Shown piece by piece: positions 6,226 to 44,503 of a stretch of 64,000 nt of DNA. How positions within the stretch are numbered: position 1 is the stretch's first letter; each line of letters begins with the position of its first letter. This stretch comes from Natronoarchaeum rubrum (GTDB taxonomy: Archaea; Halobacteriota; Halobacteria; Halobacteriales; Natronoarchaeaceae). The position numbers were made by a program, and so were the translations under genes. The notes below the pieces were generated by a model, which made no database searches, was not told the DNA's origin, and was given only the letters and a program-made list of their open reading frames with translations. The stretch covers positions 620,001 to 684,000 of the forward strand of contig NZ_JANHDP010000001.1 in assembly GCF_024494695.1 (NCBI RefSeq). The letters run 5' to 3'.

Positions 6226-7370
<1,145 letters not shown>

Positions 7371-7374
<4 letters not shown>

Positions 7375-8240
7375 GTGTTCTCGTAGACGACGACACCAGA
7401 GTCATCGTGCAGGGTATCACCGGCGGGGAAGGCAAGTTCCACGCCGAACAGATGATCGAGTACGGCACCAACGTCGTCGGCGGCGCGGTGCCCGGCCGCG
7501 GCGGCCAGGAAGTCGCCGGCGTCCCGGTGTTCGACACCGTCGACGAGGCCGCGCGTCAGACCGACGCCGACGCCTCCGTGATCTTCGTCCCGCCGGCGTT
7601 CGCGGGCGACGCCATCATGGAGTCGCTGGACTCGCCGCTCGATCTCGCGGTCGCGATCACCGAGGGCGTCCCGACCCAGGACATGGCCCGGGTCAACAAG
7701 CGCCTCTCGGAGGTCGACACCAAGCTCATCGGTCCGAACTGCCCCGGGATCATCACACCCGGCGAGGCCAAACTCGGCATCCTGCCCGGCAACATCTTCT
7801 CGTCGGGTAACGTCGGTCTGGTCTCGCGATCGGGCACGCTGACCTACCAGGTCGTCGACAACCTCACCGACCGCGGGCTGGGCCAGTCGACCGCGATCGG
7901 CATCGGCGGCGACCCGATCATCGGGACGACGTTCGTCGACGCCTTAGAGGAGTTCGAGAACGATCCGGACACCCACGCGATCGCGATGTGCGGCGAGATC
8001 GGCGGCGAGGACGAGGAGAAGGCCGCCCGCTACATCGCCGAGAACATGGACACGCCGGTCGTCGGCTTCATCGCCGGCCGCACGGCGCCGCCGGGCAAGC
8101 GCATGGGCCACGCGGGCGCCATCGTCTCCGGCAGCGGGACCGGCACCGCCGAATCGAAGATCAGCGCGCTCAACGACGCCGGCGTTGAGGTCGGCGACAC
8201 GCCCGAGGAAGTCGCGGAAGCCGTCGAGGACCTGCTGTAA
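7371..8240 (+). CDS. sucD: Succinate-CoA ligase, ADP-forming, alpha subunit
   Basis: A 289-aa protein of family length. The N-terminal CoA-binding Rossmann domain contains [12 protein letters not shown], and the active-site motif [11 protein letters not shown] places the phosphorylated histidine at about residue 247. GPNCPGII (121-128) is the usual phosphate-binding segment. It forms the heterodimeric or heterotetrameric enzyme with SucC, encoded just upstream with a 4-nt overlap. A GC-rich inverted repeat (CCCC/GGGG) at about 8265-8280 after the stop may end the transcript. Confidence 0.97.
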
Positions 8241-8286
8241 GGCGACGACCGCGCAGTTTTCGCCCCTCGGACAGCGGGGGGACACC

Positions 8287-8308
8287 CACCCGTCATTTCC
8301 GCTGTTCT
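8287..8308. other. Origin recognition box-like sequence (ORB-a)
   Basis: CACCCGTCATTTCCGCTGTTCT matches the copies at 9661, 9866 and 9921 except for one substitution in the core. It lies downstream of the 3' end of the orc1/cdc6 gene. The core GGAAA(C/T)GACGGGTG (other strand) resembles the published haloarchaeal ORB pattern of a GGAAAC block followed by a G-run. Confidence 0.6.
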
Positions 8309-8351
8309 CGGTCAACGTTCCGTTGGTCTCCGTCAACGATCCGGGCGATTC

Positions 8352-9581
8352 TCACAGCGTCGACTGGTAGGAGTTCTCGTCGACCTCGACGGCGTCGGTT
8401 TCCGCGAATGCCTCGACGACGCGGTCGACTTTGACGTCGAGTTCGTACTGCTTGTACTTCCCGCCGGCGCGTCCGGCGTTTTTCTTGTCGACCGTCGCCA
8501 GCCCGATCAGGTCGATCTCGGACATGTGGTCCCGCAGCGCGCGGGCAGAGAGCGGATCGGTCGCGTGCTGGTTGCAGATCGAGCCGTAGAACTCGTAGAG
8601 ATCCTTCGTACGGATCGGGGTCTCGTCCCGGCGCTCGGCGATCGCCAGCGCGTGGAGGGCGTACTGGCCGTGTGGCGACAGCCCCTGGATCATCTCCGAG
8701 ACGCGCCCGCGCTCGACGACGCCTTTCGCCTCCTCGACGTGCTCTTCGGTGATCTCGTCGGCGTCCTCGCGGCGGGCGATGTCGCCGGCCTCGCGCAGGA
8801 TGTCGATAGCCTGTCGGGCGCTTCCCTTGTCCTGTGCGGCGTACGCGGCCGACAGCGCCACCGGCGCCGTGTCGTACGCGTCGGCGTGGAGGCCCTTTTC
8901 GGCGCGCTGGAACAGGATCTCCCGCAGTTCCTCGGACTCGTAAGCGGGAAAGAGGATCTCCTTCTCGCACAGCGAATCTTTGACCTTCGCGGAGAGGTCG
9001 TCCCGAAACGAGAAGTCGTTGCTGATCCCGACGACGCCGAGAGTCGCGTTCTCGATCTCGGGACGGGAGAGCTTGTAGAGGATCGTGTCGTCGTCGCCGA
9101 CGTTGTCGACCTCGTCGAGCACCGTCAGGACGACGCCGCCGATCTCGTCCAGTTCCTCGAACAGCCAGTTGTAGATGTCGCTGGGGGCGTGTCCGCGCGT
9201 GGCAACCTGATTGTGATCGTCGCGCAGCTCGTTCAGGAGTTCGACGGCGACTTGATACGACGACGTCAGCGCCTCGCAGTTGAGATAGACGATCGAGAGG
9301 TCGATCTCGTCGCCGTCGCGATCCTCGTTGTGGCTCCGGACGTCCCGTCGAAGCCAGTCGAGCATGTACCTCGTGGTGGCGGTCTTTCCTGTCCCCGTCT
9401 TGCCGTAAATGAAGATGTTGTTGGGCCGCCAGCCGTTGAGGACGGGTTCGAGCGCCGAGGCGTACTCGTTGATCTGCTCGTCCCGTTCGATGAGTTCCTC
9501 GGGCTGGAACCCTTCGACGTCGAAGACGTCGCGGTCAGTGAATATGTTCTGAGTCGTGTTGAAAGGCGACTTCCGCGACAC
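8352..9581 (-). CDS. cdc6: Orc1/Cdc6 replication initiator
   Basis: A 409-aa AAA+ ATPase. It carries QPEELIERDEQI before the ATPase core, Walker A GKTGTGKT at 60-67, Walker B LTVLDEVD at 152-159, sensor 1 region GISNDFSF, and a C-terminal winged helix (from about 310) for origin binding. The frame is open about 106 codons further upstream, but that part lies in repeat DNA. I place the start at the GTG at 9581: it is preceded by a TATA element 27 nt away and begins MSRKSPFNTTQNIF, as in the family. The gene is embedded in ORB-like repeats, so it probably serves the adjacent origin. Confidence 0.93.
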   Translation of the reverse strand: MSRKSPFNTTQNIFTDRDVFDVEGFQPEELIERDEQINEYASALEPVLNGWRPNNIFIYGKTGTGKTATTRYMLDWLRRDVRSHNEDRDGDEIDLSIVYLNCEALTSSYQVAVELLNELRDDHNQVATRGHAPSDIYNWLFEELDEIGGVVLTVLDEVDNVGDDDTILYKLSRPEIENATLGVVGISNDFSFRDDLSAKVKDSLCEKEILFPAYESEELREILFQRAEKGLHADAYDTAPVALSAAYAAQDKGSARQAIDILREAGDIARREDADEITEEHVEEAKGVVERGRVSEMIQGLSPHGQYALHALAIAERRDETPIRTKDLYEFYGSICNQHATDPLSARALRDHMSEIDLIGLATVDKKNAGRAGGKYKQYELDVKVDRVVEAFAETDAVEVDENSYQSTL

Positions 9582-9603
9582 GTGCGATCGGAAGGGCGAA
9601 TCT

Positions 9604-9612
9604 ATTATAAAA
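9604..9612 (-). promoter_or_regulatory. TATA element of orc1/cdc6
   Basis: TTTTATAAT on the minus strand, centred about 27 nt before the GTG start at 9581, consistent with a leaderless mRNA. A degenerate ORB-like sequence at 9612-9631 covers the position where the BRE would lie. Confidence 0.65.
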
Positions 9613-9660
9613 CCTCCGTTCCGCTGTTTCCGATGTTCCGTCAAGTATATATTGTTGGCT

Positions 9661-9681
9661 ACCCGTCGTTTCCGCTGTTCC
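9661..9681. other. ORB-like sequence (ORB-b)
   Basis: ACCCGTCGTTTCCGCTGTTC at 9661 is the reverse complement of the copies at 9866 and 9921, so it faces them across the tandem-repeat block. It directly follows the AT-rich stretch AAGTATATATTGTTGG, a possible unwinding element. Confidence 0.65.
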
Positions 9682-9714
9682 CCGGGCCGCGACGAGCGGG
9701 TTCCGCGGGGACCT

Positions 9715-9848
9715 CTCGGCGACATCCGAATCCAGAATGCTCCGTGCCCTCGGTGACAGCCGAACCAAAACGCTCTGTACTCTCGGCGACAGCCGAACCA
9801 AAACGCTCCGTGACCTCGGCGACAGCCGAACGCTCCGCACTCTCGGCG
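9715..9848. repeat. 33-bp tandem repeats inside the candidate origin
   Basis: Units starting CTCGG(C/T)GACA lie at 9715 (34 nt, degenerate), 9749 (33 nt), 9782 (33 nt), 9815 (27 nt, shortened) and 9842 (partial). The shared part is GACAGCCGAACCAAAACGCT; the units at 9749 and 9782 differ at only a few positions. The spacing of about three helical turns would place bound protein on one face of the DNA. The period is a multiple of three, which is why a spurious open frame runs through it. Confidence 0.8.
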
Positions 9849-9865
9849 ATCTCTCAACTGCTGTA

Positions 9866-9886
9866 GAACAGCGGAAACGACGGGTG
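9866..9886. other. ORB-like sequence (ORB-c)
   Basis: GAACAGCGGAAACGACGGGT plus G, 21 bp, identical to the copy at 9921-9941 and inverted relative to ORB-a and ORB-b. The pattern matches haloarchaeal origin recognition boxes. Confidence 0.68.
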
Positions 9887-9920
9887 CGTCTCCCAGCACT
9901 CGGGCCCTTCGGCCGCTGCA

Positions 9921-9941
9921 GAACAGCGGAAACGACGGGTG
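9921..9941. other. ORB-like sequence (ORB-d)
   Basis: An exact 21-bp copy of the box at 9866, in the same orientation, 55 bp away start to start. The flanking bases (CTG(T/C)A before, CGTC shortly after) are also partly shared. Confidence 0.68.
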
Positions 9942-9960
9942 GGCGTCCCGGACTCACGGG

Positions 9961-10001
9961 CGTTGCAGCGCGCCTCGAAAAGCGTTGCAGCGCGCCTCGA
10001 A
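9961..10001. repeat. 19-bp direct repeat
   Basis: CGTTGCAGCGCGCCTCGAA occurs at 9961-9979 and again at 9983-10001, a 22-bp period, ending right at the stop of the acyltransferase gene. No other copy was noticed in the window. Confidence 0.8.
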
Positions 10002-10002
10002 T

Positions 10003-10551
10003 CTAGTCCTCCGGCGGCGCGTTGCCGTCGTCGGACGTCGAATCGCGAGATTCCGAGAGCGGCCGAGCCGGTACGCCCGCAACCGTCTCGCCGGGCGGGA
10101 CGTCCTCGACGACCAGCGAGTTGGCCGCGACCTGCGCTCCGGCGCCGATCTCGACGCCGGGAAGCACGATCGCGCCGGCGCCGATCATCGCGCGCTCGCC
10201 GACGACGACGTCGCCCAGCCGGTACTCGTCCTGCAGGAACTCGTGGCACAGGAGCGTGGCGTCGTAGCCGATGATCGCGTGATCCTCGACGGTGATCCGA
10301 TCGGGCCAGAACACGTCCGGCGTCGATTCGAGCCCCCACGAGACGCCCTCGCCGACCGTGACGCCGATGCGACGCAGCAACCAGCTCTTGAGCCGCAGGC
10401 TCGGGGAGATCCGGCAGATCACGATCACTACGTAGTTGAGCATCACCCGCAGCGGGTGGCGAGCCTCGGGCCAGTGGCGCAGCGAGTTCAGCGGGCCGGC
10501 CGTCCCGTGGCGGGCGAGCCGTTCGTGGCGCGGGTCGTCGCTCACTATCAA
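10003..10551 (-). CDS. Hexapeptide-repeat (LbH) O-acyltransferase
   Basis: A 182-aa protein. The N-terminal part has a hydrophobic stretch (about 35-50), then the left-handed beta-helix repeats: VTVGEGVSWG, ITVEDHAIIG, VVVGERAMIGAGAIVLPGVEIGAGAQVAANSLVVEDVPPGETVAGVPARPL. That ending is diagnostic of the maltose/galactoside/serine O-acetyltransferase superfamily. The acceptor is unknown; a surface or cell-wall sugar is a guess. It is downstream on the same strand as the GNAT gene with about 70 nt between them. Confidence 0.85.
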   Translation of the reverse strand: MIVSDDPRHERLARHGTAGPLNSLRHWPEARHPLRVMLNYVVIVICRISPSLRLKSWLLRRIGVTVGEGVSWGLESTPDVFWPDRITVEDHAIIGYDATLLCHEFLQDEYRLGDVVVGERAMIGAGAIVLPGVEIGAGAQVAANSLVVEDVPPGETVAGVPARPLSESRDSTSDDGNAPPED

Positions 10552-36997: not shown

Positions 36998-37095
36998 CTG
37001 AGGGGGACATCTACTATTTAAAAGTCCCGATCAACTTTAATCAGGAACACAGCAGGAGGAAGTGATAGAACCCAATTAAAATTCTGGCTTAGGGA

Positions 37096-37105
37096 TTTTA
37101 TTATA
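37096..37105 (+). promoter_or_regulatory. TATA element of the island operon
   Basis: TTTTATTATA, centred about 25 nt before the ATG at 37125. This is a normal archaeal arrangement, so the transferred genes look expressible. Confidence 0.6.
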
Positions 37106-37124
37106 CCAGTGCTAACGATGACGT

Positions 37125-38099
37125 ATGCCACCAACAGCTCAAACGTACATATCCTCTCCTTGTGGAAGCTGGGCAGACCCAGACACTTCTGATGTGAGTG
37201 ATGAGATAGTTCCAATAGAATTTGATCAGTATCGCCTAAAGTACTTTCCAGATGCTATTAATAATCTCCATGCTATAAAAAGGCGAAAAACCATAAAAGA
37301 GGTTGTAGATAAGTATTTGACTTACAGAAAGTACCTCTTTGATCCGTCTCCGAGTAGGATACGTGCTGAAAAGCAAACTGCTCGTGACTTTGAGGTAACT
37401 TGGCAAAGTATCCAGGCACACATATATGATCTTTATGATCAGAATGAACCGCTTAGCGCTTTCGAGGACGATCTAGAGAGGGTTTGGGAAGCTCGACTAC
37501 AGTCCTTCTCAAAGGACCAGAGGGCAATCAGGAACTGCTGTCAGAAGATTAAGAATACCTTGGAGAGTTTCTTAGATATAGAAGCCTCGGATATCTCCTT
37601 AGACGAGATTACCTATGAAGACTTGTCTAAAGCTAATGATCTCCACCTTGTTCAATCCCCTGAGGTATTGAAATCGCTTAAATCGCTTGATGAATACTGC
37701 CAGTTTCATAATCGTGTGTCCATCAAGCCTAAAGATATCACGGGTTATGACATAGAATTTGGCAGAACTTGGAAGAAAATACTTAGTATAATCGAGAAAG
37801 ACCTCAATAGGAATTCAAAAGAGGATGATGCAATCTCCCTTACTAATGACTGGGATTGTACTGAGGCATATGCAGTCTTCCCCGATGATAAGAACTACTA
37901 TGAGAAGCATTCATGTAGTATCTCTATTAAATATCATAGAAATGGCAAAATGAATATAGAAGCGTGTTTGTGGCCTAGTTTTGTTAGTGAGGACAGTGTA
38001 GTGAGGCTATCAACAGAATGTGATGGTATTGGTCAGTGTAGCATCAATCTGTTTATAGTTCACTCAATTAATCAATTCCACTCCATGGCAGGAGAATGA
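37125..38099 (+). CDS. 324-aa protein of unknown function, transferred
   Basis: A soluble, mostly helical protein, rich in Lys, Asn, Ile and Ser, unlike the acidic host proteome. The N-terminal half is charged and probably coiled (about residues 45-190, e.g. KRRKTIKEVVDKYLTYRKYL and AIRNCCQKIKNTLESFLDIE). The C-terminal third (about 230-320) looks beta-rich: EAYAVFPDDKNYYEKHSCSI, then KYHRNGKMNIEACLW. I recognise no family, catalytic motif or membrane segment. The stop overlaps the next start by 4 nt. It may be a sensor or cofactor of a defence- or toxin-like pair, but this is only a hypothesis. Confidence 0.75.
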   Translation: MPPTAQTYISSPCGSWADPDTSDVSDEIVPIEFDQYRLKYFPDAINNLHAIKRRKTIKEVVDKYLTYRKYLFDPSPSRIRAEKQTARDFEVTWQSIQAHIYDLYDQNEPLSAFEDDLERVWEARLQSFSKDQRAIRNCCQKIKNTLESFLDIEASDISLDEITYEDLSKANDLHLVQSPEVLKSLKSLDEYCQFHNRVSIKPKDITGYDIEFGRTWKKILSIIEKDLNRNSKEDDAISLTNDWDCTEAYAVFPDDKNYYEKHSCSISIKYHRNGKMNIEACLWPSFVSEDSVVRLSTECDGIGQCSINLFIVHSINQFHSMAGE

Positions 38100-38401
38100 G
38101 CAAGATGACAGACAATTCTCAAGAGGAAAGAAATCCAGAAAGCCATGAGGGATCAGTCATGATTGTCAAAGTGAGTGATAAAAAGGAGATAGAAAATCCT
38201 CTACTGGTAAAGTCTACAACCTCACCGGACACGGCTAATACAAATTCCTCACTTAACATAGTCCAAATATGTTCTATTCTCTCTGCCGCATTTGTTGGTG
38301 CGCAAGTATTAGCCAATCCATATGATCCATTATCACTCCAAATCATAACGTCTATTTCAATAATGTCCTTTCTTGGTACGTTAAGATTGATGTTGCGATA
38401 A
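38096..38401 (+). CDS. 101-aa two-helix membrane protein, partner of the 324-aa protein
   Basis: A small protein with a polar N-terminal half (1-52) and two closely spaced hydrophobic segments (about 53-71 and 78-97) joined by NPYDPLS, ending in a basic LRLMLR. This layout resembles small membrane effectors or holin-like hairpins, but I recognise no family. The ATG at 38096 overlaps the upstream stop (ATGA); an internal ATG at 38105 is possible. It shares the AT-rich composition of the island. Confidence 0.7.
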   Translation: MSKMTDNSQEERNPESHEGSVMIVKVSDKKEIENPLLVKSTTSPDTANTNSSLNIVQICSILSAAFVGAQVLANPYDPLSLQIITSISIMSFLGTLRLMLR

Positions 38402-44130: not shown

Positions 44131-44503
44131 TGTCGTCGATACCGTCGACACCGAGCCACAGAAGTGTTGTGCAGTTCGGGTAGCGCGCCGACGAGGTTCG
44201 TCGGACGACCATCGAGAACACCACCGTCCGGGGCGGTTCCTCAGCGGGATTCGCGCTGCTCGGCCTTGTTCAACTCGATCAACAGCCGGAAGATCGCCTT
44301 GACGAGGTTGCGATCGACGTCGAACTGGTCGGCGTTCTCGCCGGCCCGCTCCATCACCGCGGCCTCCTGGGACTCGTCGGTCGTCGGGAGGCCCTGATCC
44401 TCTTTGACCTGCGCGATCGTGTCGGCGACGTAGGTGCGTCGCGCGATCAACTCGACGATCCCTTGGTCGATGTCTCTGATCTCCTCGCGGAGCTCCTCTA
44501 AGC

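Follow-up and report, generated by a model that had tools for sequence, protein, structure and literature searches.

The window analysed here (the whole stretch of 64,000 nucleotides from Natronoarchaeum rubrum) contains an orc1/cdc6 gene surrounded by short repeats in both orientations, and the question that it raises is whether this arrangement is a replication origin and, if so, of which kind. The original prediction had proposed a candidate origin, and this proposal is supported by the boxes, the orc gene, their joint conservation in relatives and the pairing between them, whereas a change of GC skew and an AT-rich spacer do not form part of the evidence. The locus is probably an orc1/cdc6 replication-origin module that is secondary and restricted to its lineage.

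The product of the initiator gene, Orc, shows an AAA+ ATPase domain, a lid and a C-terminal winged helix (Pfam PF22703, PF09079 and PF13401; span 8352-9542), TIGR02928 scores 394 bits over the same span against a cut-off of 181, and the best solved relative is Cdc6-1 from S. solfataricus (2qby_A). The boxes directly adjoin an orc1/cdc6 gene whose product has the AAA+ and winged-helix domains and, with 409 amino acids, exceeds 300. The closest genome, G071, is here called the sister species on the basis of Orc and SucD proteins that are 97% and 99% identical to those of the window. Between both orc genes dN is 0.017 and dS 0.295, and Orc is intact and under purifying selection. Upstream of the gene, TATTATAAAA located about 27 nt before the GTG suggests a leaderless transcript.

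The search for GAACAGCGGAAACGACGGGT with up to three mismatches gave four matches in the window (0.01 expected as the shuffle mean), a count reached in none of 100 shuffles. Coordinates and orientations around the cdc6 gene are as predicted, the 20-bp core of the first copy starting at 8288 instead of 8287. It had also been claimed that two copies are identical and that the others differ by about one base; three are in fact identical over 20 bp, and the single mismatch holds for the fourth (8288-8307). The outermost two boxes form a 30-bp inverted repeat (8279-8308 and 9920-9949, 93% match), and a fifth, altered copy with five mismatches adjoins the orc promoter at 9619-9638 (-). The intergenic region beside orc contains at least two inverted ORB repeats: the box at 9661 (-) faces those at 9866 and 9921 (+), which precede the orc start by 285 and 340 bp in the orientation opposite to the proximal box. 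The G-string found at the ORB end in halophiles is also present; the consensus from 20 main-type boxes of five loci, which omits the four promoter variants, is GAACAGCGGAAAcGACGGGTGggtgtcc, and the G-string is weak in the proximal copy of the window, GGGTAGCC. That these boxes are chance repeats is hardly conceivable, and this explanation was discarded because no shuffle reaches four matches and the boxes are conserved across genomes.

Table 1. Features of the orc1/cdc6 locus and its neighbours (positions in the window).
Feature	Position	Strand	Remarks
sucC	6226-7374		Precedes sucD
sucD, succinyl-CoA ligase alpha	7371-8240	+	Left neighbour; NCBIfam NF004230 and TIGR01019 above cut-off
Downstream ORB-like box	8288-8307	-	1 mismatch; 3' of orc stop; extended repeat 8279-8308
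orc1/cdc6 initiator gene	8352-9581	-	Probable GTG start at 9581; 409 aa
TATA-like element of orc promoter	9603-9612	-	GGAGGTTTTATA, identical in G071
Variant box GAACATCGGAAACAGCGGAA	9619-9638	-	Adjoins orc promoter; 42 bp from proximal box
AT-rich patch with TATATA	9639-9660		Between proximal and promoter boxes
Proximal ORB-like box	9661-9680	-	19/20 bases kept in G071
GC-rich tandem repeat, period 33 bp	9713-9849	+	In spacer; units with short, partly imperfect hairpin (TCGGC...GCCGA)
Distal ORB-like box 1	9866-9885	+	19/20 bases kept in G071
Distal ORB-like box 2	9921-9940	+	20/20 bases kept in G071; extended repeat 9920-9949
Hexapeptide-repeat acyltransferase	10003-10551	-	Right neighbour; Pfam PF00132

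The inverted ORB-like boxes with GGAAAC core and G-run are kept with the gene in four other genomes, as an ortholog with much the same box layout occurs in G071, in G063 (probably Natronoarchaeum philippinense), in G007 (taken as Halostella salina) and in G001, which holds a contig of a Halovenus MAG. The window Orc and these four orthologs form one clade with support 100/100 in a tree of 35 rows. Followed in the direction of orc from upstream, the five loci start with two distal reverse boxes (G001 has a single one). After a spacer that measures between 67 and 512 bp come a proximal box in forward orientation (with three mismatches in G007) and an AT-rich TATA-like stretch, with TATATA or TATAAA at the corresponding place in the four relatives. 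A second box follows 42-43 bp past the proximal one; it reads GAACAGCGGAAACAGCGGAA in G071 and G063, differs by one base in the window, is more diverged in G007 and has only a looser likeness in G001. The promoter and the orc gene itself are next, and the series ends with a forward box 3' of the gene, which is also found in G071, G063 and G007 and is present twice in G001. Between the window and G071 the four upstream boxes keep 77 of 80 bases (96%) and the other upstream columns 41% of 418, gaps being counted as unlike, and the box 3' of the gene is identical over 20 bp.

The pairing of this box with this Orc was followed through a sample of 392 genomes of the order. Four of them contained a relative of the window Orc at E 1e-135, and the box (21 bp, up to one mismatch) gave 20 matches in seven. 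Fifteen of these matches are at the orthologous orc, covering all four genomes that carry it, so the same box is not simply scattered over places without orc genes. The other five (two in G024 and one each in G018, G011 and G063:C9) led us to reject a box strictly private to the ortholog, and in the nine genomes of the family 11 of 17 places with up to two mismatches are at the ortholog and six elsewhere. The pairing is thus strong, not exclusive. Other Orc groups mostly have other repeats beside the gene (74 orc loci, 32 groups). Three or more CAGCGGAA cores accompany nine of the 35 tree rows, five of them forming the window clade; the four elsewhere are among the 30 other Orc rows. The tie between ORB sequence and Orc family is also seen on the tree, where the box label changes three times against 8.2 in shuffles. 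An exception to the pairing is G018, in which an Orc 44% identical has a closely similar box. Taken together, the boxes, the gene, their joint conservation and the pairing give good support to the reading of an Orc with its cognate ORBs.

The places away from the ortholog have features of their own. The window-type box of G018 precedes a different orc, 41% identical, which has its own inverted boxes GATTCAGCGGAACGCCGGGGTGGGG and one window-type box in the same intergenic region (L121:8000-8330). G024 has no ortholog at E 1e-135, yet it contains two window-type boxes as direct repeats 11.6 kb apart (L034:5331 and L034:16895), with a DNA-polymerase-like ORF and two further orc genes between them, and one of the boxes adjoins a repeated fragment of another orc. 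At L120:7345-7431 of G011 the order of the window locus recurs, with the box followed by a stretch of TATTTATAA and then by a box of the promoter type, GGAAACAGC; in the surrounding 15 kb, tblastn detected no orc gene. A viral origin was also considered and set aside, since a pattern-based scan of viral contigs found no relatives of Orc and only a 17-bp stretch of the box occurs in one viral contig.

The position of the boxes at the promoter calls for a different explanation to be weighed. In the window and in G071, G063 and G007 (loci L030, L031 and L032) a pair of boxes 42-43 bp apart flanks the TATA-like stretch before the orc TATA box, and the same pair is looser in G001 (L033). This arrangement suggests autoregulation, and it would be expected if the boxes were transcriptional operators only, through which the orc promoter would be controlled by Orc or a different regulator, at a place where replication does not start. 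Nevertheless, the distal boxes 285 and 340 bp upstream, in opposite orientation, and the one 3' of the gene would be superfluous for a simple operator, and the inverted layout with its G-run matches haloarchaeal origins with ARS activity, which makes a purely regulatory role very unlikely. The distance of 42-43 bp had hinted at four helical turns; a general phasing of the boxes was rejected after 72 spacings from 32 Orc groups gave no 10.5-bp periodicity (R = 0.13).

The next point is which kind of origin this would be. A GC-skew inflection had been expected near 9.8 kb, and none was observed: with 9-kb flanks in the window no change stands out at 9.6-9.8 kb (71-83% of positions change as much), nor does one at the ortholog of G063, at 203 kb (90% of positions change skew as much or more). 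Over the first 400 kb of G063 cumulative GC skew peaks at 44,167, with its strongest slope change there, at oriC1. Regarding G007, a change as large as that at the candidate is reached by 36% of positions and one as large as that at the oriC1-type orc by 1.6%; for G071 the latter value is 3.3%, the candidate being too near the contig end. GC skew was therefore rejected as support for the candidate, the strong changes being instead at the oriC1-type orc in G063, G007 and G071.

The oriC1-type initiator is a separate Orc, 34-37% identical to that of the window, which is present in all nine genomes of the family. The one of G063 (about 35% identity to the window Orc over residues 113-391) is encoded at 45 kb (L041, G063:C3:44000-46400), the candidate being at 203 kb of this contig. 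Inverted boxes TTCCAGTTGAAACGAAGGGGTGGGG occupy 44.0-44.3 kb, and one gene beyond this orc there is what we take to be a gene like that for the small subunit of PolD. The candidate shares with this origin the outward inverted boxes (those on the left reversed, those on the right forward), the GAAAC core, the G-run and the position beside an orc gene, but oriC1 of G063 has the box TTCCAGTTGAAACGAAGGGGTGGGG, a distinct Orc and a clear skew change. The candidate lacks the universal Orc1-1 and the classical ORB that characterise oriC1, and its identification as oriC1 was rejected because in relatives oriC1 is located elsewhere, with another box type and a clear change of skew; oriC1 of the window's own strain lies beyond the window. 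A classical-ORB pattern had no match in 189 loci. On contig C6 of G071 orc genes are matched at six places, of which one has a TAG in frame; this contig is perhaps an extrachromosomal element.

An AT-rich stretch between the inverted boxes had also been part of the prediction, and here the sequence says otherwise. The spacer (9681-9865) is 35% AT, the window being 33% AT, and the AT-rich patch is located outside, at 9598-9660 (60% AT), between orc and the proximal box. The weakest 50-bp stretch of the window locus starts at 9603 (1.3% of stretches are weaker), and the minimum of the spacer is unremarkable, as 8% of the 50-bp stretches of the window are weaker. The weakest intergenic 50 bp of G071, G063 and G007 are in the lowest 0.05-0.12% of 19 kb and lie between the inverted boxes in G071 and G063 and outside the distal boxes in G007, so that spacer DNA is easily melted in two of the three relatives tested. 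The GC-rich 33-bp repeats of the window occupy the place where the sister species has AT-rich DNA, and their unit is absent (up to three mismatches) from the 19 kb around the G071 ortholog. A perfect 20-bp direct repeat with a spacing of 22 bp (9960-10001) abuts the stop codon of the acyltransferase gene.

These data bear on the state of the origin. It is possible, although rather unlikely, that the origin is dormant or decayed: Orc would bind the boxes, the spacer of GC-rich 33-bp repeats would stop firing, and the boxes would mostly titrate Orc or control its gene. We keep this reading open mainly because the spacer is not easily melted and is filled with the 33-bp repeats, a unit not found around the G071 ortholog; G071, G063 and G007 have very weak intergenic DNA. 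The lack of a skew signal in the window and at the G063 ortholog is also consistent with it. Dormant haloarchaeal origins are in print (PMC3528665; PMC4595724), and the first of these papers mentions two predicted origins without ARS activity. Nevertheless, purifying selection on Orc and the conserved boxes argue against dormancy, and the AT-rich patch around the promoter box (9598-9660) could act as the unwinding element.

With the reading as a secondary origin preferred, its genomic setting can be considered. The module stands alone between two core-type genes, and sucCD, a tRNA-Leu and what is presumably a purD-like gene around the locus suggest the chromosome. Of the five loci, only those of the window and G071 have the order sucCD-orc-acyltransferase. 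The module of G063 is on another contig than the sucD-acyltransferase pair, in an AT-rich stretch (island), and the pair itself is close together without orc, separated by a gap of about 1.25 kb with a hydrolase-like ORF. The gap is about 1.0 kb, also without orc, in G024 (two small ORFs) and in G055, whose sequence is like that of G024. Both genes are on separate contigs in G047, G087, G007 and G079 and 430 kb apart in G036. Since the contents of the gaps differ (G063, G024 and G055), no exact empty site or target-site duplication can be read from them. Also within the window, the region 37000-38400 is AT-rich (GC 0.47 at 37-39 kb, window 0.67), contains a 324-aa ORF (37125-38099) and is possibly foreign DNA; its flanking genes are, we assume, carboxylase-like and dehydrogenase-like.

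The unlike neighbourhoods of the same module indicate that it sits in different places, as published for the variable haloarchaeal origins (PMC3528665; PMC4441112). It resembles in this respect translocated origins such as oriCa, in which the same orc-ORB module is found in unlike gene neighbourhoods; many of these variable origins are tied to nearby transposases or integrases (PMC3528665). A stronger version would see here a minimal mobile origin of about 1.7 kb, made of orc and boxes without any other gene, with the outermost ORBs (the 30-bp inverted repeat) as its ends, which moves between unrelated sites and landed between sucD and the acyltransferase gene; we judge this improbable. The module is most likely an accessory origin whose place varies from genome to genome; it may be dormant, and its firing is putative.

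In the mechanism proposed for the secondary origin, the Orc encoded at 9581-8352 would bind the surrounding boxes, and the inverted proximal (9661) and distal (9866 and 9921) boxes would enclose the origin proper, the place at which Orc, once bound, would open the duplex and load MCM. Through the box at the promoter (9619) Orc would probably limit its own transcription, the box 3' of the gene (8288) would probably titrate Orc, by comparison with the downstream ORBs of oriC2 in H. hispanica, and the origin would still fire.

Haloarcula hispanica offers a close parallel (PMC3936714). Its origins require the cdc6 genes that belong to them, the G-string is essential at oriC1, and oriC2-cdc6E resembles the module proposed here in being a secondary origin on the chromosome that has an orc/cdc6 gene of its own, with ORBs upstream of and behind this gene. 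The ORBs that follow cdc6E reduce the activity of oriC2, probably through titration. That region has 11 ORBs in 722 bp and its origin has demonstrated ARS activity, whereas the candidate, known from sequence only, has one conserved box behind orc (8288) where the titration region of the oriC2D type is a cluster of ORBs.

As regards the box, the ORB TAACAGCGGAAACAGTGGGGTGGGGGGGT of origin II from Halorubrum lacusprofundi (Hla_3512) and Haloquadratum walsbyi (HQ2959A) shares AACAGCGGAAAC and the G-run with the candidate and differs in the middle (CAGTGGGG against CGACGGGT), in a comparison of the boxes; unlike in the candidate, a second ORB type is found beside both genes. These data come from PMC3528665 (Wu et al. 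2012), where ORB-bearing origins were predicted at 102 of 154 haloarchaeal orc genes and some origins have ORBs on both sides of the gene. No paper came up in a full-text literature search that combined Natronoarchaeum with replication origin, and for the string ACAGCGGAAAC one of the matches listed is on archaeal origins (PMC3528665). As far as these searches go, the locus itself is undescribed; its kind is ordinary and already known.

The value of the locus is comparative. Initiator and boxes are found together at different places (the window and G071 on one side, G063 on the other), which makes a clean case, and since the window keeps the boxes of G071 with a different, GC-rich spacer, this pair could test whether the spacer decides if an origin is active or dormant. 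The finding brings no new principle, and it provides a usable natural experiment on how haloarchaea live with many origins.
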